A DNA stretch of 64,000 nt from Polytrichum commune (Eukaryota; Streptophyta; Polytrichopsida; Polytrichales; Polytrichaceae): contig OX485804.1 of assembly GCA_950295325.1 (NCBI GenBank), forward strand, positions 33,046,001 through 33,110,000. The letters run 5' to 3'. Of the stretch, positions 2,297 through 62,894 are shown piece after piece. How positions within the stretch are numbered: the first letter of the stretch is position 1; each line of letters starts with the position of its first letter. Under the pieces are notes generated by a model. It did not search any database. It was given only the letters and a program-made list of their open reading frames with translations, and was not told where the DNA came from. Position numbers and translations under genes: made by a program.

Positions 2297-5267
2297 CTAG
2301 CTGGATCCTTTTTGCCTCGCTGATTTCACCATATCCTGAAGGGAGTCGACACAATGTTGACAAATAACCTCTGGATCTGGAATGATGTCTTCAGCTGACA
2401 TGACAACCAAGCTTGCTTTCCCCATGTAGCTCTGCAAAAAAATGCTAAGGGACTGCATATTACAAAAGAATTGATCAGTACGGGGCCCTTAACAAAATAC
2501 CTGAAGCAGACTCCATTCTGAAAAGTATGCAACCAGGAACTGCAGCTCGTTGGAATTCAGAATATGTTAAAAGTGGTGCACGCAACAGACAAGCACACTG
2601 AGCAGATCAAAGATGCTCACATCATTCATTCTAAGTCCTCATCAAAATCTTGTGTAACTGTGTAGCGATAATATATATTGTCTGCATGAACAAAGTCAGA
2701 AATATATGATGACATGTATCAAAGAACAGGTCTGCTCGGCCTCACCTGTGGATGTCCAACGACAGCAGGATAGATGCTGACAATAGGGTTACCGCTGAAC
2801 ATAACAGCTTCCATTGGCCCAGGGACATTTGAAACCGCCAGTGTGGTTTGCAGGATAATTCGCCGAGTAAGAATTGTTGGTAGCTTTAATTTGGGAAAAT
2901 TTACAATTTACACGGTCAGTTAGACTATATCAAAGTCCAGGATTTGGACCCAGAAATTGTAGCAGAAGCACCTTACACTGGTTTAATAGAAATGTAGCTA
3001 ATGAATGTCAAAAACTTCAACATAACAAACATCATGCAAGAGACTTTGGTCCTTACAACTGGCCCTGTTATCCCCATGAGCAATGCTCCACTCCAGTACG
3101 TGAAGATGCCCTCAAGGGATGTCTTCTTCCTGTCACCTATTTTCTTTGCAGCCACGACATGTTCAAGCGGGTCTCCCAGGTGCTTCAGAGGAATGTCAAT
3201 TAGGAGATAACCCAGATGATTCCCCCACCGCGTTTGAGAACCACCCTCCATCATTGATGCTAGCTCCTGCAACCAGCAACACCTAGATTATTCCACCACC
3301 AAAACCTGAAAGGAAGATAAGGAAGAGGGACGTCCTCATTTCCAACACCCTTCCCCTCTAGATGAAAGTGGACAGGGCATTTTCCTTTTGTAAAAGTGTC
3401 AAAGACAAGACCCAGATTGCGTGAATGATGTCAGGAAATACAGGGCATGAAGAATGAGATTATATCAAGCCAAGACTAGATGGATGCAACATTATTTTAT
3501 TCCAAACCTGCAATCCTGGTGACCCTCTTGTATTCATTAAACCAGCTGCACGAATACGCAAATTCTCTATTTTGGAAACAGCATTCTTTTGATTTTCCAA
3601 ATATCGGAGAAGGCCTGCTCCAACCATGCCCATGAGGACATCATTGATTGTCTGTTTTTATCAAGCATAGTGTCAGTTACTAGAAAGGCATCCAACATCA
3701 GCATCAGAATATACCTGCAATATATAGAATGGATTATTGAGAAATGTAGTCAGATCTATGTCACAATCATCAAGGCCATAGAAGTAATGAAAAGCCTCTC
3801 TTATTTTGAATCTGGAACCTGCTTAAACTTAATCCAACCTATCATGATTCTATCCAGGATAATTGAAGCAATGAAAAGCCCAACATATCATGAATAATTT
3901 CTCCATTTCTACCATAACTAGAAGGTTCATACTAACACATTGCCATCTAAATGGGCACTGGATTAGCAAGGAGCCACCAGCTTCCATATCTCACCCACCC
4001 ACCCAATATATCACAAGGATGCCACTTACATGGATATGACTTACAGTTGGTTGATAGAGAGATTTTAAGACTTTGTCCAACTGGACATCCTAAATTATTG
4101 CTTACAAATGAATACCTTACTCTGTCAAGTATGCCTTGAGAATGGAGACCACATTTCCTAATCATTGGCTACCTACCAACAGTAAATCCATATATGCACT
4201 ACAAACTCACCCCATTCACAGCGTCCTTTACAAGACGCATGTCACCAATATCAATGATCTGGTACACAAGCTTCTTCTTCTTCTTCTCCACACCTTCGTA
4301 GCCTTTCAGGACACTGGGGCTGTCTTTCAACCAGATCGCAGTAGAAGTAAAGAGGAAAACACCCACTATTGTGTTCCACAGAAGAACAATCATGGAAAAC
4401 AACCACACAAACAGTGAACCCTTTTCTCTCTTTCTCCTTTTTGCTGCCGGAATTGAGGGGAGCTCACTAGGACTATCCAAACGCCGTGTACAAGCCAGCA
4501 GCAGAGACATGAGTGAAGTTCCGTCGCCTAGAGAATGGTGGACACGGATAATCATGTGAGACTTTGCATTTCCAGACGTCCCTTTTAGTATATGACACTC
4601 CCACAATGGACGCGATACATCCATAGGGGGAGCACTCCCAAGGTCACTTAAATAGTCCTCAGCAAAACGAGGAGCTGCCATTTCTGATTCGGTGTAGCCA
4701 GTTGGCTCAAAAACATGAGCATTTATATCAACTTCTACTGGAACCCAGACATCCACCCCCTTCCTATCCTTGATCTGCATTAAAAGGTCTCAATTTAGTC
4801 AGACTGAAAGCAGAAACCATCAACTAAATTCCAAAATATGTTCTACGATCACCCAAGAATCTGTAGCCAACTCCTAAGAGAAGGTTACACAATTGAAGGC
4901 AGCAAGAAATGATAAATATGGGATATCCACGAGCAAATCCAGCATTAAGCATCAACAAAGAAGAAACTAAATCTGACTAATCAAAAGGAACCACAGTTTA
5001 CAGTTGGAAGATTACCATGATGCTGTGAAACCGTTTATGCTTTACAAGTGTTTCCAGCAAAGATTCCTTGAAATCTGAGACATTTATTGTATCTTTAAAC
5101 CCCAGGGTACATAGAATGTAGCAATTTAAATTTGGTTGAGAAAACAGTCGCCCTGCTGGAGTGACAGGCTCCTCAAACTCTTCTGGTCTTGTTGATAACG
5201 TTGTATGTTCTTGTTTAGTACTGATTTTCCGAAGCCTCAAATTAGTGGTTACATTTTCAGACCCCAT
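2297..5267 (-). CDS. Wax ester synthase / diacylglycerol acyltransferase (WSD family), seven exons
   Basis: Joins fatty acyl-CoA to fatty alcohols or diacylglycerol to make wax esters or triacylglycerol, usually at the ER; in plants this feeds cuticular wax. Model: complement of 2297..2429, 2501..2517, 2746..2883, 3057..3266, 3508..3651, 4211..4774 and 5016..5267, giving 485 aa, normal for the family. All introns are GT-AG and all phases agree. The catalytic HHxxxDG motif is HHSLGDG at residues 163-169 in the second exon, followed by a hydrophobic stretch (LFVWLFSMIVLLW). The conserved TINDVL block opens the third exon and SNVPGP lies in the fifth. The N-terminus has the usual PxxRLF..PNLNCYI segment. 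The ATG at 5267 is the first true ATG of the open frame. The sixth exon is a 17-nt microexon. Confidence 0.93.
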
Positions 5268-6365
5268 GATCAACAGCCTTTGTATCACAATAAGAGAGGC
5301 CTCAATTCGTCACGGGAACACCGACTCAGTGCATGTCACGAATGAAATTCAGCCCACTCCTGCACACACATATGCAGTCACCAAGTATTATGATAGAGTA
5401 TACCATACTTATACAGCATGATCTTCCTTCCAATGTTGCCTCTAGGGAGAACAATACCAACAAGCAACCTCCCAGATTATAAAACACCTATACAAAGGCG
5501 CGGATCTTGCAAAAGATGGCCACACTAATAGATGAGGAGCATCAAAGGAACTAAGAAACCATGTCTTCCTACACGTGATGACCTATTAAATATCTTTACG
5601 TGTTGCTACGTACCACCATTGACCCAAAAAAAACTTGTGAAAATGCATGTCAAATTGCATCTCAAAAATTGTTAAACAATAAGGAGAAATGGAAGTTTAA
5701 TGAGATCGAGTATTTCCTTATACTACACTAAAATGCACACTAAGCCTTATAGAAGTTCTTCCAGTTCTTTTGTAAGTGCATCACTAAACCTTGCCTCTAC
5801 AACAACATCGTCACTTCTTCAAACACCCATTCTCTATAGATCCTGATATTGTAAAATCTCGAATCAGGTTTCTTTAGAGATTCAGCTATTCTCAATACTT
5901 TCTCAACGCTCCCGAGCCGAACATGTTCGTGAATATCACAAAAATAAAAGCATACAGCCGAGAAATCTTAAGACGTCGTGCTCCCTCATAAAGCAGTACA
6001 GGACAATTGCAATAACAAGAGAAATCTAATTCTCTCAAACAGGCCGTCCGTATTCTCCTAGGACAGCTGGCATCAGATACCAAGCGAAGACAATTGAAAA
6101 GACTGAGGCCCGGTTTTAGAGAGTGAACTTCTGAATCTATTCTGAAATTCTATTCCTTAGAGTTCCCTGAAGCTTCAAAGGACGAGAACTGTTTGGAATC
6201 TACTCCACGAGTGCCAGGAAACGGAGCACCTTCGCTGAAAGACTAACCAATGTTACGTTCCACAATATGCTTAAGCTCCTGCTGAAATGCGTTCCCTCTC
6301 TCACATAAACATACACTAAGCTGCCTATCTACTTCGCTGTAGCAAGGTCAGAAGTTTAAACCCTC

Positions 6366-6945
6366 GACGAACTTTCAATCCCCTCTTCACTCCTGTTCTG
6401 ACGCACAAGGATACCAGAAAAGCAAGAAACCGATATTCTCAAGTCCAGAATTATGCGACCGGAAGTGATTTGTTATTTCATCAAAAGTTTAGGCTCTCAA
6501 CGAACTTTCAATCTCTGTTTCACTCTTGTTCCGAAGCACAAGGATACCAAAAAAAAAGTTTAAAAATTAAATACTCAAGGAAACCGAAGCTCTCAAGTCC
6601 GGAATGAATTTAGGCGACCTGAATAAATTGTTCACTTCAAGAAAGGTTTAGACTCCCGACAAACTTTCAATCTCTGTTTCACTCTTGTTCTGACACACAA
6701 GGATACCAGAGACGCAAGAAACCGGAATTTCCAAATTCAGCAAGAATTTTGCGACCAGAATAGATTTGTCATTTCATCATAAGTTTACTCTCAACTAACT
6801 TTCAATCTCCGTTTCACACTCACTCTGACACGCAAGGATACCAGAAAAGCAAGAAACCGAAATTCACAGAGTCCAGAATGAATTCATGCGACCGGAACAA
6901 ATTTGTCATTTCATCAAAACTTCAACTCTCGACGAGATGTCAATG
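6366..6945. repeat. Tandem array, units of about 133-158 bp, upstream of the wax synthase
   Basis: Four units and part of a fifth begin near 6366, 6499, 6657, 6792 and 6930, each with AACTTTCAATCTC..TTTCACTC, then ACAAGGATACCAGA and AAGAAACCG. The array lies 1.1-1.7 kb upstream of the wax synthase ATG, so it is in its promoter or in a 5'-UTR intron. Copies are diverged by point changes and small indels. No gene is supported in 5268-7600. Confidence 0.85.
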
Positions 6946-7620: not shown

Positions 7621-8223
7621 ACACTAAATATTGTATTTAGTGTCGTAGGCTATTTTATGTCATTGTGAATATTACTTTTCTAGTGACACTTCTTAAGAAT
7701 TAGTCTACAAGTACTGTCATCCTAATCTACTTTTAGTTCATCTAATGTCAATTATCAAAACATGTTTTGGTGTATTTTGCATCCTCACACATTTGTAAAT
7801 GAAATTTCGTCATGGTTGATTGAAATTTGGTTGAAATTTCACTTAGTAAGTGATAGTAATTGAAACATTGTATATCTATAATGTCCAATTTTTTTTACAA
7901 TGAATGACAACGAATGTTGGGTTTACATTTAGTGTTGGTTTACAATTAGTATTGAGCAAGACTAATAGAATTGGCGACACTAGATACAATATTTAGTGTA
8001 CTTACCAACATTCTTTAGTATAGAGCAAGACTCATAGAATTGGCGACATTAGATATAATATTTAGTGTACTTACCAACATTCTTTAGTATAGAGCAAGAC
8101 TAATAGAATTGGTGACACCAGATATAATATTTAGTGTACTTACCAACATTCTTTAGTATAGAGCAAGACATATAGAATTGGTGACCCTAAAATATAATAT
8201 TTAGTGTACTTATCAGCATTCTT
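7621..8223. mobile_element. ATTTAGTGT-family repeat with four 69-bp tandem units
   Basis: The element starts with a near-palindrome (ACACTAAATATTGTATTTAGTGT) and shares its body with diverged copies at 31771-32127 and 47996-48354. From 7951 to 8223 its tail (GAGCAAGACT..ATTTAGTGTACTTACC) is repeated four times with an exact 69-bp period (anchors at 7954, 8023, 8092, 8161); the other two copies carry the tail once. No protein is encoded, so it is non-autonomous. Superfamily unknown. Confidence 0.75.
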
Positions 8224-11572: not shown

Positions 11573-13785
11573 TCTACCTTAGATAAGATCTCGAATTTGA
11601 GGCAATTGAGCACCTATCGATTTTCTAAACGAAGGGGACAAATGGATATATCTGCACCAGTCAATAAGCCTGGAAATCGACCTCGAATGCTTATGTGCTA
11701 CCTTTGTGGCCGTGAATTTGGCAGCAAAAGGTATTATTTCTTTGGAGAAATTTAAAAAAAAATATTAGTTCATGACAGATGAATATAGAACGATCAAAAT
11801 TCTAAAGCAGATTGTTCTACACACATTTACAAGGATTTCTTTTTGGTTTGGATTGATATCTTGTGGGATATTCAGTTTACCCATCCACATTCCACAATGT
11901 CAAAAGAAATGGCTAGCTGAAGAGGAAAAGAAACCCAAAAAAGAACGCCACCCTTTGCCTCCACCTCCTGCAGCTGAACAATCTATTAAGACAACCGGTG
12001 CTCAAATGGTTGATGACTTTAATAGCGAGTAAGTGCATGGATATATGAAAAAGTCTCTATCTCATGTACTTTACATTGATGTCACATTTGTTGTTGTCTA
12101 GCTGAACATAGATATATTGTAGTACTTCTATCACAAGGTTAGGATGTCCATTGATGCCAATCAAGACATTTGAAAGCTTCACATCAGACATTCATAACCT
12201 TACACATTGATGCAAAAACAAGATTCTAAAACTATTTTAAATGGTCTTACGGGCATTCTTTGAATGAATAAAATCATGAATACAATGGATTCTAGAGAAG
12301 AACTTCTTTGGCCGCAATCCAATACTATAAGAAGCCAAATAGAGAGGCCATCTTGCATCATGATACAGGGCATTTGCGGCTTTTGAGCAAAGTTTGGAAC
12401 AATGTCCACATTGTCAACGGCGTTTTGTGCCCAAGGCATTCAAGCATCACTCCAATGCATGTACTGCAACATGTCCGGCTAAGCCTGCTGGCACCAGTCT
12501 CATCGCCAACTCGCTTTCCAACAGGCTAGTACCGGGTGCAATCGCCGGATCCATGCATGGGAATGCAAGTGAGTGCATATCACTCTCTAGCTATGTCACT
12601 CATCCTTTGATAAAATTTGATATTTGTTCCTCAACAATGTCATATCAATTATCAAACAATTGAAACAACATGAATTGGATTTCATATTCTAGCATTTGTA
12701 TGGGCTTACACTAATTACATATTTGTGTGACACAGAAGCACCACCTCCAAAACTTCAAAAAAATATTGGTTTATATAGGTCGTCTATGAAAGAAAAGATC
12801 ATGGATGTGAGGTCACAAAGGGATGGAAATATTTTTGTGCCCTCTACCATAGATCACGTAAGATTATGGTTGTTGTCCCCAACGTTTTTCTCTTTCATAT
12901 ATTTCTATTGTGTAAGTATGTTCGTATGGACTTTGCTTAGATCATAAAGTGACATAAATGATCATCCTCATCCAGATGAACTGCCACTTTCTCTAAGAGG
13001 TTTGAAAGGAGATGCCCTCCTCTAATAATTATATACATTCTATTATACATAAAAACATATATGAAAAAATGTTTAAAATCAACAAACCCACAAAGTCGTG
13101 TTTTGATAGCAGGGCCAAAGCTCAAAGTCAAATAGTTTTTGTGACAATTGTGGGGCACAATATGAGCGGCCTAACTCCAACTTTTGCTCCCAATGTGGGA
13201 CCAAAAGGGCCGGTATGTGAACTTGTCGTTTCTTACTTGAACATGTTTAGAAAGCAAGGTTCTTATGGTTTTGAAAAACTAAATTGAACTTTGTGCAGTT
13301 TTTAAGGGCAACAACCCATGTTTTCCAAGTGAGTGAAAGTTTGTTTTGCTTCAAGTTGGCATGATTGTCAACCTTGTAATATATAGTGCCAATAAGTTGA
13401 ATGGATGTATGAATATCAAACATCAAAGGAGAAAACATCTTCCACTACAAATGTGGTGTCTTGTCTAGGTTTAAATAATGAAGCGTGTGCCCTCACGAGT
13501 GTAATTAATGCACGACATATATTATAAAGGGGCATTTCCTTATGGAATTGCGAAAAAACTCTTTCACAAGTTCCATGAAATCCCACAGGGTTCACGATGG
13601 TTGATGAGCCAAAATTGAATTCCCAAAACAAAGAATCACCGACACTAAGTGTGGTGCATGCCCAAAAGCCGGAAGGAAACTCAAAGACCAAACTACTAGA
13701 TCCTTGGGAAATAGATAAGGATGTTAAAATCGATAATGACGTTCCAATTGAGATTAAAATAAAGATGAAAATTCCCAAAAAATGA
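11573..13785 (+). CDS. C2HC zinc-finger protein with C-terminal zinc ribbon (zf-C2HC_2 family), six exons, 5' end open
   Basis: Model: 11573..11730, 11876..12028, 12393..12568, 12736..12857, 13113..13212, 13589..13785. The frame stays open through five GT-AG introns with matching phases (about 301 aa). The first finger spans the first intron: RPRMLMCYLCGREFGSK joins SLPIHIPQCQKKW, i.e. C-x2-C..H-x3-C. The second finger is EQCPHCQRRFVPKAFKHHSNAC. A zinc ribbon follows: CDNCGAQYERPNSNFCSQCG. The C-terminus is Lys/Asp-rich and ends PIEIKIKMKIPKK. The family includes animal ZNF474 and ZC2HC1; its molecular role is poorly known. ATG at 11642 (MDISAPVNKPGNRPRM) is one possible start, but the frame is open back to an AG acceptor at 11571-11572, so an upstream exon is likely. 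Expression is unproven. Confidence 0.75.
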
Positions 13786-24138: not shown

Positions 24139-24220
24139 GTGCTCGTGCCGGAGTGGTTATCGGGCATGACTAGAAATCATGTGGGCTCTGCCCGCGCAGG
24201 TTCGAATCCTGCCGAGCACG
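24139..24220 (+). tRNA. tRNA-Ser (anticodon AGA)
   Basis: An 82-nt type II tRNA. The acceptor stem GTGCTCG pairs with CGAGCAC, followed by discriminator G. The anticodon stem CATGA/TCATG encloses the loop CTAGAAA, giving anticodon AGA (IGA after modification, reading UCU, UCC, UCA). The long variable arm GTGGGCTCTGCCCGC folds on itself, and the T arm GCAGGTTCGAATCCTGC is canonical. No intron. A CAA motif lies just upstream (24135-24137), AT-repeat DNA lies further up, and a T5 tract at 24231 can end Pol III transcription. Confidence 0.97.
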
Positions 24221-25631: not shown

Positions 25632-28600
25632 TCACACCTTTTTGATAATCTGGACCACATCCTCATCCTCCAGCTGGTGCTCCTGGGTTCACAAATCCAA
25701 CAACTTTATTCAGAAATCTTATTCTTGGGAGTAAATAGACTTATCCCCTCACTCATCATGACTTTTGGTTGGGAGTCGATTGTTTTGCATACAAAACCTT
25801 CCATGTTCATTAAGTTTTTGGTGCATGCTAAGAGGTTTTGAATTAGTTTGCCCTCAATGGACTGACATAGGTTGCTCTTCACTTAGATTCAAACACTGCC
25901 TCCAAGCATGAACCACAAGTGGAGAGATAGTATTGATTTTGTATGCAAAATAACTGATGGGAATTATGGGGGGATAAACTCCCAATGAAGGTCTCTCTAA
26001 AAAAGACTTCCATACCATGAGCAACAAGGCCATGCAACCTGAGGATGACTATGTCTCCAAAATCCAAGAGACAATTACAGGAACAAAGTCCCACAAATAT
26101 GGTCACTAAATTATCACAATCCTCTTTCCCCCATTCATATCTGTAACAACTATGTTTAACCAAGATCGTGGGAAGTAAACATAAAGAGAATTCGGTCAGA
26201 AGCAGACCTTGCCCACCCGCTGTGGTTTATGTTTTGCACTTGAGCCCCATACTAAAGCACTGTCATCAAACATTTACCCAAAGCACAAAGTTACTCATCA
26301 AATAATCCCTTCACACCAACTGGAAAGAAAATATGTCCACTTGCACAAATTCATCAGTGTATCACTCTCAAATTTGGCTTTGACTTTGTGGATAGGAACT
26401 TACAACTTGAACTGTTTCACCATGTCCTTATGAATGCGCTCACAGAAATCCTCCACAGTACACTTGTTGGCTGAGAGGATGACAGGATCTTCATAATCAG
26501 GGCTGTTGCCCTTGGGTTTTGTATAAACTCGAATTAGGTTCAGATACTCCCAAATCTTTTCTAAAAGACCATCCAGATTCCACTCAAGGTGTGCACTGCA
26601 ACACAATACAAGCATTTGACATGTGAGTGTATATAATCAAAAAGAGAATGCGCATTCTCACAAGACCACTAAGGACCACAATAGGTCTTGGACCAAGTCA
26701 GTACCAAAACCCCACCCCTTGGGTAAGATTTCTGAATTGAAATACATAATTGTATGTAGGCCCTCAAGTGATTTAAAATTTCCTTACCTGACCGGACAGT
26801 AGTGAGGTAGTCTGTCCAGGACATGAAGCTCCTCAAGTGTAATTTGATCAATCTTGTTCACAACATAAATGCAAGGCATGTAGATACGATTTCCTTCAAT
26901 AACATCGATCAAGTCATCTGCAGTTGCATCAAATCGTAAAGAAATATCTGCATTGTGAATTTTGTACTCTCCGCAAATAGCCTTGACAGTCTCTAGATCC
27001 AAGTGGGTATTAGCAACTGTGGATGTGAAATTGATTCCACCCTTATCCTTCCTTCTAAAACCCATATTTGGCGGTTCCTTATTTAACCTGCAAAAACACC
27101 ACAAAGACGTTCCTTAACACTCAGAATGCAGTCTTCTGAAGTGATGGAATTATCGGAACACAACAGGCAAGCAGCAGAAGAAGAATGAAAAACCACAACG
27201 AGTGCATTTCCGAAGTGGAAGGAACAAATAATGTCCATTTATACAGAACTAACAAAGATTCCAAAACTTAGTTCCTTCCCTTCTAAATTCATGACAACGC
27301 AAGAACACATCAAAGAAATCAGGAGGAATACACATTGCACAGTGGACATATTCCCAATTTGGAATGGAACCCCCATGCTGAGCACTAAGGTGACTATGGT
27401 CAAAATAAATAACATGTAACAGAGCAATGAGGAGTTTGAAACAAATCAAACCTGATTCCAAAACCTTCCAGCTCCTTCTCGATCAGCCGCTTGTGAGTGA
27501 TAGGTTTAATGGCATCCAAAACTATCAATATACAGTTGCATGTTCGTGCAGTACTGATAACCTGTTCAAGACCAGAAAAAGGGTCAACTATGTTCCTGAG
27601 AAATCCTTCCAGGCAAGTGCACGTTCTTTAAACAGGAACAAAGATTGCCCCTAGGAGTCGGAGATGCAAGTCATTTACACAATTCTGGAACAGATCATGT
27701 AGGGCCTAAAGATGCCAAAAGAAGACCATGTTGAGTAATTACTCCAATGATGCTAATACGTAATAAAAGAGGACTATTCTGCAAAAAGTTCAGGATTTCA
27801 ACCTGTCGACCTCGACCTTTCCCATCTTTTGCTCCTTCAATAATTCCAGGAAGATCCAATAGCTGCAGACACAAACCCAAACTCAAAAACATGCATATTT
27901 GGATTGCAAGGTGGCAAGGTGGCAAGGCTGATCTCCTAACCCAACCTCCATACCATGGAAGATCAATTTCTTGCATCTAGACTGCCCATCCTTAAAAACC
28001 AGATGATACACACAAACTGCCAATTTGTGTCACAGCAACCTGATCACATAATCAAGAGCATGAGATCCCACAAGTAGAATATTGACCTGAATTTTTGATC
28101 CTCTATATTTGATGACACCAGGCACACACGTCAAGGTCGTGAACTCATATGATGCAACCTGTAATTACATCCAACCGCACAAGGGCCACGTCTTGAATTT
28201 TGGAAAATGCTGCCAAAATCATACAGGGATTCCACATGGGTCATTCATATTCTGGGGAGCTTGAAGTCCACCAAAGAGTTTCAAAATTCCAAAAAAAGTG
28301 CATACAAAGTCCATTGTTGCTGCTTTGTGCTGTGAAAGCGCTGCATATCATATATTTCCAGGAGCGCCTGGGAAATCCAAGCATTTTAGGAAGCCAGATT
28401 ATAATGGGAAATGTCAGGAAGCAAACCTCAGAAAATGTCCCTGTGAGCTTGTTGAGGAGTGTAGACTTGCCCACAGATGGAAAACCAACTAACCCGACCC
28501 GTGAATCCCCACTCTTGGTCACATCAAACCCCTCTCCTGCACCTCCCCCTTTGGAAGATGGTGGAGCCAAAATCTCCCGCCGCAACTTCGCCAATTTAGC

Positions 28601-30469: not shown

Positions 30470-30872
30470 TTTTCGCGACCCCCTGGACGGAGGGGAGGAG
30501 GAGATAACAACCCTAACCTGGTGAGTACCTTCATCCAATACACTTTCATTCTCCCCCACTCCCCTTTCATTCATTCGGAGGTGGATGAGAAGTTGCCTAG
30601 TTCATTTCGGTCACGGAACTCCTCCTAGGACTAGTTCAACTGCACGTACGGACGGCTTTCATCACAAGCAGGTCCCCCAAACGCCATCGTTGTTGCTGCT
30701 GCCGAATCTCGCCTACCCAAAACAGTGATGGGTCATACTGTAAAGGATGCAACAATAATAATAATAATACTGTTGTACCCCGGGATGTGGTAGGGACCAT
30801 GTGAATATGTATGGCCCCATTATCAAGGCCACCAAGAGTGGAAAAACAAAAAAAAACAAAAAACAAAAAAAA

Positions 30873-31440
30873 CCCAATTTTTTTTTTCTGCCCCGTGCAT
30901 TGGGTTTTTGGTTGTAATGCAAACAATCATGGTTTTATTCCAGCTGTCGCCATATGTATTACAGCCGGCAGTTAACATCAAGGGTGGGAACAACCCAACT
31001 TTTTCTCTGGCCGATGCAGTGAGTTTTTGGTTTTAATGCACAAAAACCATGGTTCTTTTCCAACTGTTGTCATATGCATTCATGTTAGCAGTTATCATCA
31101 AGGGTGGAAAAAACCCAACTTTTATTTTGCGTGATACATTGGGTTTTTGGTTGTAATGCAAAAAAACGTGGTTTTATTCTAGTTGCAGCCATGTGTATTC
31201 CAGCCGGCAGTTATCATCAAGGGTGGGAATAACCCAACTTTTTCTCCGGCCAATGCATTGGCTTTTTGGTTTTAATGCAAAAAAACCATGGTTTTATTCC
31301 AATTGTTGCCATATGCATTCATGTCGGCAGTTATCATCAAGGGTAGAAAAAACCCAACTTTTGTTCTGTGTGATGCATTGGATTTTTGGTTTTAATGCAA
31401 ATAACCTGATTTCTACAAAATAAAACCGGATTTTGTTGGA
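30873..31440. repeat. Tandem array, about 120-bp unit, alternating two subtypes
   Basis: Units begin with CCCAA at 30873, 30994, 31114, 31233 and 31353 (steps of 119-121 bp), sharing GGGTTTTTGGTTNTAATGCA and GCAGTTATCATCAAGGGTGG. Two subtypes alternate: units 2 and 4 have TTTTTCTCYGGCC, units 3 and 5 have GYGTGATRCATTGG. That makes a dimeric repeat of about 240 bp. Confidence 0.88.
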
Positions 31441-50441: not shown

Positions 50442-51613
50442 CTAGCCGAAGAGGTGATGGGCTTTCTTCTTGTTGCCATCGGAATCATAGCCAAGCTCCT
50501 CCAGTTTATCCTCGGCTTCACTCTTCTGGTGATGTTCGTAAAGCCCGTAGCCTACCGCCGCCGCGGCCACGCCCTCCGCAATGCGCTTATGCTTCCGCTC
50601 GTCGTCCATCTCTTCGCCATCTTCCTGCAGGGCGGACAAGAAGTAGGAACAGATCAGCGGGGTAAGGATGAGCGTGGTGTGATTCACAGGGCGGCAACTT
50701 GCGAGGGTTCTTGGATAATAACTTACAGTGTTTTGAAGCTGATCATGCATTTAGAATGTATTATGCTGAGCTTATAGTAGACATGTTGTACAAAGATGGT
50801 GGAGGAGAAATCGTGTCTCTGTGCAGGGGAGAAAGGGAATATTCCAAACTCTGCATGAGCGGACCCTGGAGTTGATCACTACTTGAATACATCATTACTT
50901 TGATATATTTGCACCTTAATTGCGCTATCTTCATATTGATGGAATTGTTTTTTATTTACTCTACACATCCACATCCACTTCCACTTCCACATCACTACCT
51001 TCGCGCTGATAATGGTGTGGAACCCACAGTAAGGTGTAACACCGTCGCAACATCATCACAACATGATAACCATGTAATGCCCGGATGTTCAATCGGGAGC
51101 TGGCGTTCTTGAAACTCACCCACACTCACCAACACTCACAACAAGAGGAATCTCAACACGTGGTTACATCACAGCAACTAGTCTGCATCTGATTTACAAA
51201 CTGAACTACATGTATGAATATCAAGTCAGTACCTTCGATTCGCCGTATCCGCTACTATATCCGGTGCCAGTACCGTCGGAGCGACCGTATCCGCTACCGT
51301 AGTCAGGTGTTCCTCGAATGCCATTGTCCATCAGACCGGTTCCCAGGTCCGAAACTTCAGCTGGCTCGCCATACATCGCCGTGGGAGGGGGAGGCCGAGC
51401 TGGACGTCCGCCATAGCCACCTCCTCGCATACCTCCTTCCACCTCATCCTCATACACAGGTGGAGCATCGTAGCCCGGACCGTCGAATGCCGAGCCTCTC
51501 ATGAACCCGCGATCTCCTACAGGTTGTTCTTCTACCATTGCCGGACCGTCCTCTCCGAGCTCGTCGTCGAAGCCATCGCGCCGACCATACCCCGTCGACT
51601 CCACGTATGCCAT
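50442..51613 (-). CDS. ASR-like (abscisic acid / stress / ripening, ABA/WDS) protein, two exons
   Basis: Small hydrophilic stress protein; ASR family members bind zinc and DNA and act as chaperone-like factors under drought and ABA. Model: complement of 50442..50624 and 51233..51613, 187 aa, one phase-0 intron, as is usual for ASR genes. The second exon carries the ABA/WDS signature: RKHKRIAEGVAAAAVGYGLY, then EHHQKSEAEDKLEE and a terminal KKKAHHLFG (classical ASR: HKIEEEIAAAAAVGSGG..HEHHEKKE..HHHLF). The first exon encodes a Gly/Tyr/Pro-rich, probably disordered region (RGGGYGGRPARPPPP, YGSGYGRSDGTGTGYSSGYG), longer than in typical ASRs. It starts at ATG 51613 (MAYVESTGYGRRD), with three ABREs upstream. 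Identity rests mainly on the C-terminal 50 residues. Confidence 0.75.
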
Positions 51614-54282: not shown

Positions 54283-55450
54283 GTGACCTTCCAATTCTTG
54301 CTTCCAATCCTTTGTCATAACTAATCCCCATAGGAATGAACATGCAACAGTTCCACAAAGTCATCAAACTTACACCATAAATGTACAGAAGAATAAGGTG
54401 ATGTACAAATAGGACAAATCGGAGGGGCAGCTACAAAGAGAATCACAAGTATTCAGTGGTCCACTTGGGCAATCCCTTTCATTGTTCTCGATTGACTTCC
54501 AGCATTCTGACCAAGATAATGTTAATTATCTCTTGTTGAAAATTGCACATAGATACAAAACATGTTCATATCATTACCCAACATACAACTCTTGTTCCGT
54601 GGGCCCTCAGAACATAACAGTGCCATGCTCGGAAAATTGCGCAGGAAGACTTAGACTGTGACTGAAATCTTAGCTTCTCACTATTATATTATGAAGGCCC
54701 ACGTCGTTGAGTAATGCTGAGTTCACAACCATGAAGTAGTATTCCATAAAATTTTGTATTGAAACACTAAACCCTCACTCCCCCGTTCTCCTAGATTTCA
54801 CACGACACACCCGGTTTCAAATCGATTTCATCATAATTGTCAAACTGTCAATTTGTCATAGCAACTTGTACCCCAATTTTTATTTTTAATTCTGACGGCC
54901 TTGAATTTAAGCAGCACACACAAACTTCTTGATGTAATTGGACATGCATATGTAACACCTTTGGACCTATTTTTGTGTACTAGGCGATCTAGGGGCCTCT
55001 CCTGATTTCAAACCCAGACCAGGGTGACATTTCCCTACTGATGTCACACCTACTTATCACTTACCCATACTCCACCACCAATTCCGGCTACCATGATGGT
55101 CATAATTTGAGTTAACCATATATAGGGCCTACCCTAGAGAGGAAAGGGGTAGTAATCTGCAGGCAAAGCGGCTCTTCATTCATGCTTGTTCCAACATGAG
55201 CCATGGTTACATCTTTGGACCTTAATCAAAATGAGTTTTCCCAATGAACTGCTAATGGAGCCTGAGAATGTACAGGAAGACTCCGAGCATTATTTCGGTC
55301 ACTCAAGACAAAACCTCACCTCCCGAGAGGGCACAACAACAACAACAACAACAACATGCTGGCAAAGAGGCTCTTTATTCATGCTTGCCCCAACAATAAC
55401 CACTGCTTATTTCTACCTGCTTGGACCTCATTTGAAACGAGTCCTCCAAA

Positions 55451-58400
55451 TCAACCTATTGGGAATTTCTCAAAATTGAGTTTGCAGAGTTTGGAGAGTG
55501 TATATGAAGGCTCCAAATACTTCCCTTTGAGGAGCGATTCGGCCAGAAGTCGAGCCACAGCTTCAGTGATATGGATCCCGTCCCAGCTGAAGTAGGAATT
55601 TGGATCAGCACAGGACTTTCCTTCAAGCAAGACCCCATTTACATATCCACTTGACCCACAATGAACTGCTCCCAGTATGTTATATTTCCCTCCTCCAGCT
55701 CCACAGCAAGCCTTTATTGTCTCGTTGAACCCTGCCAATGCCAAGAGAAGGACCACATAAACGCATGAGGATACGTACGTATTGAGGTGTGTGGCTTTAT
55801 GTGGTTAAGGTGAGTTTCCATGTATGTTGCTCACACACTAGACTCTGGTGGGAATAAGGGATAAGTGTAGATGACTCGTGTGTGTTAACTGGTTGTTGTT
55901 GATTTTAAGTGTTTAGTGAGGGCATTGAAGTCTAGTGGCCCATGGTCATGGCCCTTCACATTCTGGTTGCCTACTAGAATGTGGTCGGTTGCTTGCTTTT
56001 GTTATCTTCATGAAAACACACCCCACCCATTATTATGTAGAATCTAGTGGGTCGGTGACAAACATGGAAACCCACCCTTATCCTTCTGATTTGAACCCAA
56101 TTTGGATGCCCATATTATATTGGTATATGGCAAGGCTTTTAGTAAGGAATCTTGGACACCACAAAGACCCGTGTAGTGATGAGATTGGATGATGTGATCA
56201 AAATCGATTGATAGCATTCTAGGTTCATCTCTTAATACTATTGGGAGGGCATGTGTGGTAACTCTTCATAATCAAGCACCTATATTTGAGCAGTAATTGG
56301 CGAGGACTATAGTTAAGGGTGCCGGACTCCACAAAGACACTTGACATTGCAGTGAGATTGAACTATGTGCTCAAAATGTAGACATCATTGTAGAGGAGGA
56401 TCTTTATTTTGACCTCTTCGAAGTTTTGCATCTCAATTCAGATGATGACTAGAATTGATGATCGTCGTGATTCACAATCGCTATTTGGATGAGACATTTG
56501 TTGCAATGAGATTAGGACTATGTGCTCAAAATCAATAGACACCATTCTAGGTTCAGTTGTGAACACTTTTGGGAGGGGACTATGTGATCACTAAAGAGAG
56601 AAAGACAAGCTTCACTTTGACCTCTTCTAGTTTTGACATAGAGTGGTTACATCTCATCTCTAACAACTTGGAAACTCGATCTACATGGTTCATTGCAATT
56701 GCTAACCAAATGATATTATTTTGGCCCGATTCATTGTTGGACTTGGACATGCCCATACTATGGCCTAACACCCTGTAAACTCAAGTGACATTTGCGATGA
56801 CCATGCAAAAGTAAGGAATGAGAGCCTAAAACAAACACATTTCTCAAATGATTACCAATGTATGACATTCTTAGATTTGCATTTTCAAATGAAGAGACAT
56901 GTGACATTTAACAAGACTCTGACCACTTTACAATTGGCCTCCAATTTAGCTCACACGCCTTAGGGTTAGGGTCCAAGTCCAAGAAACTTGAGGTCCAAGA
57001 AATTTGGGGTCCAAAACCCGCTTAATTTGAACCCAAGCTTGAAGATTGGTCTCTCAAACTGGGAGGATTATTCTCTTGAGTTGGGATCCGCCGAAACATG
57101 GTGGGAAAGTGATGCCCATTAACGCCACTTTATTTTTTCATGCCTTGGACATTGACTCTAGTGCGAAGTCCTTGGGTCCAAAGTTTTGCTCTTGGGCAAT
57201 AGGGTCACTCGATTTTGAAATTTCTTTGGTGTTGGACCCGAAGAGTGTAAAGCTATCTTTTATCACACAGGGTAGAAAAAAGAAGAAGAGGGAAAAAAAA
57301 AGTAACGCCCGTAACGAAGTACTGGTGTGACTGTGAGCCCGTTAACCTAATGTTGATCGCGGTTGTCCATGATGCAACATGAGGTGTTACGCCTCTCACA
57401 CAGACAAGGTACACAAAGAGGCACCCACCGAGAAGGTTTCACTGGCAAACTACAATTTTTTTTTAAAACAGCAAGTAGATTTGGGGTACAGTACTTGGGA
57501 AAAACATAACTTACCGTAGGCAGCAGGGTTGGTGAGGACGGCGTCAAAAAAACCGTACATGTCTGCATTGAGGATGGTGGCATCAGGATACTTGTTGCCG
57601 AGGGCCTTGAGACCAGCTTTGATTAACACATTTGTGGAGTGTATGACCTCATTCAAAGTGGCAAGGCATCCTCGACTATCGAAGGTGGACAGGTTGCGTG
57701 ATCCAAGAGAAGCTAGAAAAGCTGGGTAGCATCCGAGTGGAGGAATGTTGAAAACCATCAGAGCTCTTGCGCCTTGGTGGTAGAGCTCCTGCAACAACGT
57801 CCTTGTGATGCTTAGATCGATATCCAAAGCATCGATCGTTCTATTTGCACTGAAACAGTACATAATAATCTACTGAAATCAGCCTTGGTGGTAGAGTTCC
57901 TGCAACAACGTCCTTATGATGCTTAGATCAATAACCAAAGCATCGATCGTTCTATTTGCACTGAAACAGTACATAATCTACTCAAATCAGCCTTGGTGGT
58001 AGAGCTCCTGCAACATGTCCTTAATATGCTTAGATCAATAACCAAAACATCGATTGTTCTATTTGCACTGAAACAATACATAATAATCTACTTAAATCAG
58101 TTTTGATTAGCTTAGGCAACAATTCCATATTGATTCCTGAAGTCACACCACAGGGGGCTTTCGACAGTTCTCTTCATAGGGAAAGATGTGGTAAAGTGGA
58201 CAAAAAACTTAGGAGTGGACCTTGATTCACAGGGTTTCCTACTCCTCAGGTTTAGTCCATGTTACCACATGTTTTCTTAGGTGGTAAATTGCCCAAAATT
58301 CCTAGTGCATTAATTACTTCCTCAACCATTGCAATCCAAGTTTCTTTGAGGTGGAGATTTCTTTTTTAATCTTTACTTGATTGAAATACTATCTAATTTT

Positions 58401-61400
58401 AGGAATCAATTAAGAGAGATAATTTAGGAATCAATCTGTAAGTGTTTTTCAACATCCTACCATGCGGACATGATATCAGCTTTGTAGGAGTTATCCAAAA
58501 ACGTATCAACTATCTACGTGGCAATGTGAATGAGAAACTAGTACATATGTGAAGGTATAATGGGTGGGGTAGATGATTGAAAACAAACTTTAATCCTACT
58601 GACATCGTTAAATGAATGACGGGATGAGACCCAATTGGGATGAAACTTTTTGCATAAGATTTCCAACTAAATTGTGAACCTTTGAGGCTCGAAATTTTTA
58701 TGTTTGAACCGAATGTGATTTTTTGAGAACCCTTGCAATGTGTAGCACTCCATTTTACATCCAATCTTACATAATGTTTTTTAAGTAACTTCAAAAACTC
58801 CAATCACCAACCCCACCAGTAGATATCTGAAACATAAAATAATGTAAATCCTTGATAATTTTCATAGCATTCCAAGTACATACAAATGTTGTTCTCTTAT
58901 TTGACATATTTCCTAGTGTATCATGAGGTTTAGTCCACATCCAATGAAATTTAGGGCGTTGGATGCTAAATGAAATTCATTAATTCTGATAAAAATTTCA
59001 CCTCCATCTAAAAAAATAAAAGGTCTCATTCGAAACAAAAACCATCAAAAATTGATCATTTTGGGTCTCTCAGGAATTTAGGGGTTAAGAATAAAATTTC
59101 AAGAATCAAGATCTTTGGTTGCATGCATGATACCAAGCATAGTCAAGTGGCAAGCTCTCATTAATCGACACTTCATATATTGTTGCTTATCTTTGGGCAC
59201 AAATAACCTTGTTCCATCCACCACAGGGGCGTCCCCGATGACATCATTCTCACGAGGTGATTCAGATTACCTAAGAATTATTCCATTTGCATAGTAAATA
59301 AGCTTGCTTAAGACGGTTGTGATTTTTAAGGGTTCAAGATCCTTACTTCCACACCTGCCACCATAGCGTTGGAGATGCCGGTGATGTTGGCCCGAACTTG
59401 ATCGATCGTTTGACCCAAATCGATGAGCGGGACGAGGAAATCGTTGAACCCAGTAGTGATGAAAAACAATGCCTTCTGGAAGCGCCTCGGCTTCGTTTGT
59501 AGCCTCAAACTGCTCTTCAAAAGACCTGCTCTTCAGAAGACCTAAGTTACCGCGGTTTACGATTTAGGGCACATGAATCACTCCTGATATTCCTCCTACT
59601 ACTGCTCAGATGCAAATCCTCAATCAATCAATGCTTCCAAACTACAAAACAAATATCGACTTTGAACATCTACTGGGGTCTGTACAATTACAATCCAGTT
59701 TGAAAATGGGACATTTGAACACATTGTTGATAGTAATATGCAAGTTATAGATCACACAAGAACAGCCTTGCCTTTATCATATGTGTAAGAACCCACACAT
59801 GAGTGGGAAGTTTGCTTGGTAAGTCTATCAGGTTTGGCCTATTCTATGTAATTCCAGCGGCCACTAGAAGCAATCTTGTCTGTTGCAATCATCTGTTGTG
59901 ACTTGTTCATTATGAGTTGGCTGCGAGGAATGTATAATATACAGCAATGCTATATATATATGCAAATTTTCTTTCGTTGAGAGCTGCAATGAACAAGTCG
60001 CAATGGACAACTGAAGCGGATAAGATTTCTCCGAGTGAATGTTCTTATACAAAGAATCAAAATCTTGTGAATGATTTAAGAGAATGTTACAACATCGATT
60101 ATGCCACTCACAACATTACTTCACAAGTTGAGCCGTTTTTGACATGATCTAACTCATAGTTGCATTGCTCTTTGAATGAAAATAAAAGTGGGTCTTGTTC
60201 TGGAATTTGTTAAGTTTTTAGCTTGAACCTATAAAGTGAGTGAAAGGGGCTCTCGGGGGGGGGGGGGGGGGGGTAGTCATTGGTTGGAGTAGCAATATAC
60301 GTGCGAACAAATGATAGGGTATTTTAAAAACATGGGGGCTAAAAATTATAAATGGACTTAAGAGTAATATAGGGTATCAAAAATGGCACTGGACATCTTT
60401 AAAGTACTATAGGGTATGGAATAATAGGTAATTTGGAATTATAAGTAATGCAAGCCATTTTTCTATTAACCCAAAGTAGAAATTTACATAATGATAGCAT
60501 GTGAAAAAAAAAAAAATTGAAAGTAATACCCCCCTATAAAATAGTGGTTGTTCGCACCTACATCCTTAACTTTTTAACACACTGCCCCCCCCCCCCGAGA
60601 AGGGGCTAGCCAAGGCTAGAAGCCCACCTCTTTGAGCTGGCCCCCACTATTATGACCCAAGGTGACATTGCAATTAATATTATATCCCATAGAGTTCTTT
60701 TTAAATATAATTTGATTCCAAAATAGTATCAGAGATTCAAAAATGAATCTAGAGTGACCCACTTGTGATGAATCTATCACAAATTTATAAAGATCGATTT
60801 ATTTCTTAAAACCCCTTCTCTCAGCATTCGTGGTGGGGATCCAACTCAAAGAAGTGGATGTTTAGTCTAGGCTAGTAAACGGACCCACTAATCTAAGAAG
60901 CATTGATTTGCTAAGAATTGAAGATACTGAGAGTTGTGTTGTTTATGAAGTAGGTAATGAATGCGAGGAGCCTTGCCATAGGCTCTAGTAGACGTCCGAC
61001 CTAGCGATGACTTTGTTTAGTTACTAGGTATCTACTACCTCTGATAATAGGCTTATAGGATGTAGTGGTCAGGCCACAAAAAGGTCAACAAGTACGGGTG
61101 CTCTTGCAGTTCCTCCTATTGGGGGCACTCATAAAATCACTTGGACGGATCACTATGGAAAGAAAACATCAGATCATACTTATGGTCACGGAGGAATGTA
61201 ATGATGAACATACACCACCGATGTTTAGAACATGAACAGAGTGAATTCAAAAAGAAAACTAGTGAATGTTATTACCATTCTCCGCATTCTTCCACAACGC
61301 CACAGTCTGCTGCTTGAAGTACTCGAATTGCTTCGACTGGACATAGAATGTGAAGGGCGGGGTAAGACTCGCAGAGTAGGAATTGTTTTGCGCCATGCTT

Positions 61401-62894
61401 CCCGAGGTTGCGAAATTGGCGCCATGCCTGAAATCACCGCCCACAGGTTGCAGGTATGGATGCAGGAACGGAAAATCCAGAGCCTGGGCTGCAGGAGCAG
61501 TCACAAAACACAAACCAAAGTATATAAAAATTGTGAAACAAAAGGAATCCTTGGTTTCTGGATCTCCAAGTAAAGAATTTAGGAGCTTAATCAACAATCA
61601 AGCATGAACTCATAGCATTATTATTTAGTCTATGAAGCTTGGTCTCTTTCTAAATTACCTAGTAAAACCTATTCCCTCTCTTCCATACACTACAGATTGA
61701 TTCAGGCTGAAACTGAATCCAGGCATCCTGCACTTTAGTTGTAGAATCAAAGAGCAGCCAACAAAGAGAACAACCGAATTGACTTCTGAGGGAGGACTTA
61801 TTACTACTTTCCGAGCCCCATCACAAGTTGCCTACGTACCTCTTATGGAGAAGATGAATGTTGCAGAAAGATTAAGGAAAGTAGATCAGCGCAATTAGGA
61901 ACAGTACCCGACTCATGCTTGAAGATGGGTTTCACACCAAAATTGACTTCTGAGGGAGGAATTGGCACTTGTCGAAGATATTGATTGCAAGTTACCTGAA
62001 TCTTATGGAGGATCTGAATATTGCAGAAACGATTAAGGAAGTACCGCTCACGACGAATTAGACAGGTCCATCCTTCAAGATTGATTCCACACCAGAATCG
62101 ACGTCTGAGGGAGGACGACTTAGTACTTACCGGAGAAATCGATCATGAATTGCCTAAACCTTTATGGAGGAGCTGAATGTTACAGAAAGATTAAGTAAAG
62201 TAGATCAGCGCAATTAGCAACAGTACCCGATTCATGCTTGAAGATGGGTTTCACACCAAAATTGACTTCTGAGGGAGGAATTGGCACTTGCCGAAGACAT
62301 TGATTGCAAGTTACCTGAATTATGGAGGATCTGAACATTGCAGAAACGATTAAGGAAGTACCGCTCACGACGAATTAGACAGGTCCATCCTTCAAGATTG
62401 ATTCCACACCAGAATCGACTTCTGAGGGAGGACGACTTAGTACTTACCGGAGAAATCGGCCATGAGTTGCCTAAACCTTTATGGAGGAGCTGAATGTTGC
62501 AGAAAGCTAAACGGAGGTACATCGACGACACAAGGAATTAGAGCGGTTCATGCAACAACAGATTTCACATTCAAATTGATTTCTAAGGGAGGCGGACTTA
62601 GGAGTTACCGAAAAAATCGATGACGAGTCGGCCATTGGAGTATCGGTTGGCGGGCTTCTTGAAGTAAGTCTCGCCGTAAGGCAAAGAGGTTTGCGGGGCA
62701 GATGCGTAAGGAAACGCAGCCTGAGCATTCCCCGTGTCGGTCATGGACGCCCCAAACGCAAATATGGCTTCGGGGCATGAATCTCCCTCTGCCAGTCCCA
62801 CCGCACAGCATAGCATCAACACCGAAGCGATGAGTCCCAATTTGAAGGCCGCATGAAAAACACCGCCATGATCGTCTCCTCCCAATTTCATCAT
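55451..62894 (-). CDS. GDSL-type esterase/lipase (SGNH hydrolase), secreted, five exons
   Basis: Plant GDSL lipases hydrolyse acyl esters, mostly in the cell wall or secretory path. Model: complement of 55451..55731, 57515..57788, 59347..59525, 61276..61488, 62609..62894, 410 aa, GT-AG introns, matching phases. A signal peptide follows the ATG at 62894 (hydrophobic LGLIASVLMLCCAVGLA; the upstream in-frame GTG is not a start). Block I is FAFGASMTDTGN with Ser50: the family GDSL is GASM here. Block II is GANFATSGS (Gly118), block III GFND (Asn194), and block V DGIH (Asp368, His371), so the Ser-Gly-Asn-His set is complete. Exon 4 opens ELYHQGARALMVFNIPPLGC. The exon-4 acceptor was chosen for phase and family fit. 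Introns 1 and 3 hold tandem arrays that copy the exon edges. Substrate unknown. Confidence 0.93.
55808..56078. mobile_element. MITE with long imperfect inverted ends, in GDSL intron 4
   Basis: AGGTGAGTTTCCATGTATGTTG..CACTAGACTCT at the left faces AGAATCTAGTGGGTCGGTGACA..CATGGAAACCCACCCT at the right: about 40 bp of imperfect inverted repeat. TA lies on each side (55806-55807 and 56079-56080). A partial copy is at 45831. The rest of the intron holds dispersed repeat pieces (GAGATTGRACTATGTGCTCAAAAT near 56350 and 56510) and the inverted relative of the 8233 MITE at about 56955-57260. Confidence 0.75.
57771..58097. repeat. Three tandem units of about 109 bp copying the exon-4 acceptor (GDSL intron 3)
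   Basis: Units start with GCCTTGGTGGTAGAG at 57771, 57882 and 57990. The first covers the real start of exon 4 and its acceptor (minus strand GTTGTTGCAG/GAGCTC). The other two repeat both the coding edge and the upstream intron (GCATCGATCGTTCTATTTGCAC). The second unit keeps an intact acceptor; in the third the CAG remains with nearby changes. Confidence 0.92.
60255..60273. repeat. G19 homopolymer in GDSL intron 2
   Basis: Nineteen consecutive G, the longest of many poly-G/C runs in the window. A C12 run follows at 60585-60596. Real length may differ because such runs are error-prone in sequencing. Confidence 0.8.
61782..62609. repeat. Tandem array of about 157-bp units copying the exon-1 end and donor (GDSL intron 1)
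   Basis: Units start with ACTTCTGAGGGAGGA-like sequence at 61782, 61946, 62101, 62265, 62418 and 62579 (steps of 153-164 bp). The last runs into the true end of exon 1. The units at 61946 and 62101 pair with those at 62265 and 62418 as a nearly identical higher-order repeat of about 318 bp. On the minus strand units 62101 and 62418 carry GATTTCTCCG/GTAAGTACT, a copy of the exon-1 end GATTTTTTCG/GTAACTCC. Confidence 0.93.

Follow-up and report, generated by a model that had tools for sequence, protein, structure and literature searches.

A GDSL lipase gene of five predicted exons

The window that we analyzed, a 64,000-nucleotide stretch of the Polytrichum commune genome, carries on its minus strand a gene for a GDSL lipase/esterase, which we recognized by a Lipase_GDSL domain lying within an open multi-exon reading frame. 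Judged by its gene content, the window resembles nuclear DNA of a plant. Five exons, when spliced, give an open frame of 410 codons with GT-AG introns in phases 1, 1, 0, and 1. Exon 1 (62609 to 62894) extends from the first ATG to the residues FF plus one base (phase 1), and it is followed on the same strand by exon 2 (61276 to 61488), exon 3 (59347 to 59525), exon 4 (57515 to 57788), and exon 5 (55451 to 55731, including the stop codon). The junctions of this spliced model were picked by eye from the sequence, and the model is a prediction. It requires four introns only, and an additional new intron could conceivably be present.

The Pfam model PF00657 (Lipase_GDSL) matches residues 44 to 383 with an E value of 6.9e-30 and a score of 105.2 bits against a cut-off of 23.6. 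When the predicted protein was compared with the PDB using phmmer, two sequences reached an E value of 0.001 or lower, namely lysophospholipase A (2.2e-05) and thermolabile hemolysin (0.00053). Residues 47 to 56 (62727 to 62756, minus strand) read FGASMTDTGN, with an alanine at the position that is usually occupied by aspartate among GDSL enzymes.

A tandem array across the exon 1 donor junction

Six related units of 156 to 161 bp, the last of them partial, occupy the start of intron 1 and run from 62628 to approximately 61765 on the minus strand. We numbered these u0 to u5 (anchors at 62592, 62431, 62278, 62114, 61959, and 61795). Measured from donor to donor, the lengths of the five full units are 161, 156, 161, 158, and 161 bp; the sixth was cut at 61752, and its likeness to the others fades near 61765 as judged by eye. 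Unit u0 (62468 to 62628) begins with the final 20 nt of exon 1 and continues through the model donor, GTAACT at 62608, into intron sequence. Units u1 (62312 to 62467) and u3 (61993 to 62150), which we call type A, each contain a GTAAGT donor, at 62447 and 62130, respectively. Units u2 (62151 to 62311) and u4 (61832 to 61992) form type B; the former has a GC donor, GCAAGT, at 62291, while in the latter ACAAGT at 61972 replaces the donor, and each has a CAG/GTAACT sequence just upstream (62314 and 61995). In the partial unit u5 (61752 to 61831), which was placed by unit alignment, GAAAGT at 61811 replaces the donor. The donor position thus reads AC in u4 and GA in u5, which is neither GT nor GC.

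The repeat overlaps the junction between exon 1 and the intron, repeats the donor, and keeps its units in register there. The original prediction had correctly described an amplified junction of six units, although it had them start from the edge of exon 1, and we found that the array instead begins 18 to 20 nt inside the exon. When the end of exon 1 was anchored at the donor and compared with the units, u1, u2, u3, and u4 scored 8, 8, 10, and 8 over 18 to 20 nt, values that are not independent of each other. Among 2,500 control G/GT or G/GC sites sampled in the window, 5 scored at least 8 and none reached 10. The same donor-anchored comparison gave no exon-end match in u5 (score 3). The copied exon end encodes the end of RLVIDFFA, and RYSNGRLVIDFFA is aligned with both PDB relatives, though the aligned segments are weak (1.8 and 9.0 bits). 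Because this is family sequence, copying most likely proceeded from exon to intron, with the exon as the source and the intron copies as its product.

Likeness among the units is uneven. Identity is 0.97 between u1 and u3 and 0.96 between u2 and u4, and it falls to 0.65 to 0.67 between types A and B, to 0.58 to 0.64 between u5 and u1 to u4, and to 0.50 to 0.59 between u0 and u1 to u5. Within the array, TRF reported only a dimer of 317 bp (61838 to 62506; 2.1 copies, 95% matches), and a repeat search found the dimer copies to be 94% identical over 204 nt and 95% identical over 159 nt. A near-identical and recent dimer had been proposed beforehand; the dimer is there and appears to have been copied later, but the units themselves are not near-identical, with the types only 50 to 67% alike. 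The simplest history that we infer is one older amplification followed by one later duplication of the dimer. At position +5 of the donor, u1 to u5 all have G and u0 alone has C, so either the exon 1 donor lost the better base after copying or the first copy gained it.

Candidate splice sites and their effect on the reading frame

We computed donor strength as the pairing, in kcal/mol, with the 5′ end of U1. The model donor at 62608 pairs at -5.2, compared to -10.7 for the GTAAGT sites at 62447 and 62130, which bears out the expectation that these two extra donors are better than GTAACT as it stands at the exon. The CAG/GTAACT sites at 62314 and 61995 reach -8.0, the GC donor at 62291 reaches -5.7, and the ACAAGT at 61972 reaches -2.5. 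By sequence strength alone, candidate donors are found in more than one unit: GTAAGT in u1 and u3, and GC in u2. The other three donors of the gene model pair at -5.1, -5.0, and -9.3, and 22 of the 293 GT sites in introns 2 to 4 pair with U1 as well as or better than the model donor, which marks that donor as ordinary. None of the same 293 sites reaches -10.7. Intron 1 has two GTAAGT sequences (62447 and 62130), and introns 2 to 4 together have one, which is the model donor of intron 4. Recursive splicing at the two CAG/GTAACT sites would be possible. We also considered local RNA folding as a reason for the choice of u0, and rejected it: the computed accessibility of u1 and u3 exceeds that of u0, a result that counts against the explanation we favor.

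Sequences resembling small exons precede the donor positions. In the five units downstream of u0, the distance from a TTCA(G/T) element to the donor position is 42, 39, 42, 41, and 42 nt (candidate cassettes c1 to c5), and each of these is preceded by 117 to 119 nt of possible intron. Since c5 lacks an AG and both c4 and c5 lack a donor, the complete candidates are c1 (62448 to 62489, 42 nt, TTCAG to GTAAGT), c2 (62292 to 62330, 39 nt, TTCAG to the GC donor), and c3 (62131 to 62172, 42 nt, TTCAG to GTAAGT), all on the minus strand. As putative poison cassettes, c1 and c3 read APP and then a stop, and c2 reads DPP and then a stop. The 20 nt at the acceptors of c1 to c4 contain 13, 13, 14, and 13 pyrimidines, compared to 13, 9, 9, and 13 at the model's four acceptors. 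These TTCAG acceptors are as rich in pyrimidines as the model acceptor of intron 1 (13), which would fit real cassette exons and is a point against our favored explanation.

None of the extra sites that were tested would preserve the protein. Extending exon 1 to any of the five downstream donors brings a stop after residue 98, as does inclusion of any single one of c1 to c4, tested one at a time; u0 alone gives the full protein. Cassettes read from CAG to the donor run into a TAA, in agreement with the truncation that had been predicted for them; the CAG, however, belongs to the intronic portion of the unit and was not copied from the exon as had been supposed. The two 23-nt cassettes that start at CAG/GTAACT shift the frame. 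The GC donor in u2, the CAG/GTAACT sites at 62314 and 61995, and two other junction duplications in the gene go beyond what had been foreseen.

Two further junction duplications in the same gene

The first of these is an array of three units of approximately 108 to 111 bp across the intron 3 acceptor (57771 to 58100, minus strand), which was identified by TRF and unit alignment. In each unit, about 90 nt of intron 3 leads through a TTGCAG acceptor into 18 nt from the start of exon 4. Pairwise comparison of the units gave identical bases at 99 of 107, 100 of 110, and 103 of 108 aligned positions. In translation, both upstream copies give ELYHQG followed by TGA; the third alone leads to the 410-codon frame. 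As an alternative start of exon 4 we examined TTTCAG, and all four such sites (57780 to 58110) run into a stop no more than 4 residues past the junction in the model phase. That choice is also disfavored by the PDB alignment, which is ungapped at TTGCAG/GAG, the target having two gaps a few residues earlier.

The second is a 16-bp duplication across the intron 2 acceptor (59510 to 59543, minus strand; TRF), in which the last 16 nt of the intron and the first 16 nt of the exon are alike at 15 of 16 positions. It creates three AG sites spaced 16 nt apart, of which only the middle one keeps the 410-codon frame. At every duplicated junction, then, the model site is the only one among the copies tested that preserves the frame.

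Three of the six TRF arrays (score of at least 50) inside the gene cover a junction. Uniform random placement gave a mean of 1.02 junction-covering arrays and a probability of 0.026 of three or more, and placement with exon content limited to 30 nt gave a mean of 0.24 and a probability of 0.0013. Both the placement test and the 30-nt limit were devised after the arrays had been seen, and the intron 1 array entered with its extended span (61752 to 62628), so the result is suggestive only. At a lower TRF threshold of 36, three further rows appear around the gene, which were left out of the test; none is at a junction, one lying beyond the stop codon (55333 to 55356), one in exon 5 (55478 to 55499), and one being a run of 19 G in intron 2 (60255 to 60273), which is also a possible sequencing trouble spot.

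At a score of 50, TRF returned 17 rows over the entire window, and none of these falls in the open reading frame stretches at 4202 to 5309 and 26403 to 28600, which have wax-ester synthase and GTPase matches. Four 69-bp units lie at 7946 to 8223, and in the minus-strand consensus of the unit TTGGTAAGTAC forms a further strong donor-like site that is repeated. Arrays of longer period are found at 30867 to 31406 (120 bp, 4.5 copies) and 6662 to 6916 (135 bp, 1.9 copies). Other matches in the window, on the minus strand at 4202 to 4789, 26787 to 27113, 28244 to 28600, and 50445 to 50750 and on the plus strand at 12364 to 12660 and 24139 to 24220, are to WS_DGAT_cat, MMR_HSR1 and its C-terminal region, ABA_WDS, zf-C2HC_2, and tRNA-Ser; the ABA_WDS and zf-C2HC_2 matches are both just below their Pfam cut-offs.

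Probable tolerance of the duplications, possible decoys, and alternative explanations

We think it probable that junction-spanning tandem duplications have been tolerated in this one GDSL gene, and that the extra splice sites they supply are at most decoys. What the analysis shows is the repeats, their overlap with exons, the frames in which they read, and how strongly the donors are computed to pair with U1; the order of events, the donor used, and any effect at the mRNA level are inferred. Local tandem duplications would have chanced to span exon-intron junctions of the gene, one copy of each junction would still have given the full frame, and the remaining copies would have become intron. 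In intron 1, a segment of about 160 bp that took in some 20 nt of exon 1 together with the donor and about 140 nt of intron would have been multiplied to about six units; types A and B would have diverged, and the A-B dimer would have been copied again later. Productive mRNA would use the exon-proximal donor at 62608, with the extra donors acting as decoys at most or permitting low-level inclusion of the 39- to 42-nt cassettes. Such duplications would be tolerated because one working copy of the junction preserves the mRNA.

The extra sites need not be silent, and the donor choice, decoy splicing, or cryptic exons proposed beforehand may occur. Two decoy donors are both stronger and computed to be more accessible than the model donor, which counts against our reading; some decoy splicing would be expected, and the decoys may cause some unproductive splicing. 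Since use of a decoy or cassette leads to a stop after residue 98 or to a frame shift, the result would be reduced output and not an additional protein.

The same properties could be read as a working brake, in which strong decoy donors and poison cassettes send a regulated share of transcripts to nonsense-mediated decay and the number of units tunes expression. This would account for the gap in U1 pairing between two decoys and the model donor (-10.7 versus -5.2 kcal/mol) and for c1 to c3, with their length of 39 to 42 nt, TTCAG, GT or GC donor, 117 to 119 nt of possible preceding intron, and stop after residue 98. Against it, two of the five extra donor positions lack GT or GC and one is GC, and columns invariant among u0 to u4 showed no significant clustering (shuffled P values of 0.32, 0.30, 0.24, and 0.058 for windows of 10, 15, 20, and 25 columns). 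Without such clustering, nothing shows that the copies were kept for function or by selection, although the P value of 0.058 for the best 25-column window would be compatible with weak constraint on the units. We regard a regulatory brake as unlikely. Quite unlikely, too, is a broader proposal that one gene amplifies its own splice junctions on both donor and acceptor sides, setting a weak authentic donor against stronger copies as a repeat-number-dependent rheostat of unproductive splicing made out of its own exon edge, possibly with a bias of duplication toward junctions.

Intron-mediated enhancement and telescripting suggest another role for the array, in which the extra donors would serve as unspliced U1 binding sites in a promoter-near first intron, raising transcription or blocking early polyadenylation. 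The intron is indeed the first, lies near the start codon, and holds several strong U1 matches, but a separate reason would have to be found for the duplications on the acceptor side of the same gene, and we judge this role very improbable. It is more doubtful still that an unrelated intron minisatellite resembles the exon end by chance: u5 has no exon-end match and the match elsewhere covers 18 to 20 nt only, but scores of 8 to 10 in u1 to u4 are rare among the controls, the intronic part of u0 also aligns with the units, and exon 4, with 18 of its nt in each copy, is a second and clean example. An assembly artefact that inflates the number of units, which the 94 to 95% identity of the dimer copies might suggest, is hardly credible, given that types A and B differ at about one-third of positions and the dimer copies at about 1 in 20 bases, more than a duplicated read would.

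If the decoy donors are used, the locus would test how a weak exon-proximal donor beats stronger copies downstream and whether expression is set by the number of repeats. Even if they are inert, the presence of three duplications across junctions of a single gene suggests that such events are buffered by splicing, since one copy keeps the mRNA intact; they may also offer introns a way to grow and to gain cryptic sites.

Comparison with known junction-spanning repeats

A literature search combining GDSL, intron, and minisatellite returned no match, and we recognized nothing closer than the three cases described below, which does not prove absence. The locus is a further case of a known kind of junction-spanning repeat, here with longer units and with donor and acceptor sides both affected in one gene.

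In the human IFI6 minisatellite, two repeat units downstream reportedly serve as splice donors, which enables three mRNA species (PMC4526556). There, as in the GDSL gene, a tandem repeat supplies several splice donors, which in our case are candidates. The GDSL units differ in being about 160 bp long, in having extra candidate donors that would truncate the protein instead of giving isoforms, and in being accompanied by acceptor-side duplications.

In potato, a tandem duplication in an RdRp gene spans the boundary of intron 1 and exon 2, and a new intron was detected there (PMC4974935). This is likewise a duplication in a plant gene that crosses an intron-exon boundary, so that splice signals are inherited, and it is best compared with the array at the GDSL intron 3 acceptor. 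Unlike the potato duplication, that array has three copies, and its upstream copies, which reach TGA after 18 nt, appear to have been absorbed into the old intron. In Drosophila, intron gain via tandem duplication of coding sequence has been described (PMC2891723), and the two systems share the principle that new splice sites can arise from exon sequence that has been duplicated. Whereas the Drosophila introns occupy novel positions, in the GDSL gene it is old junctions that have been multiplied, without an evident new intron.
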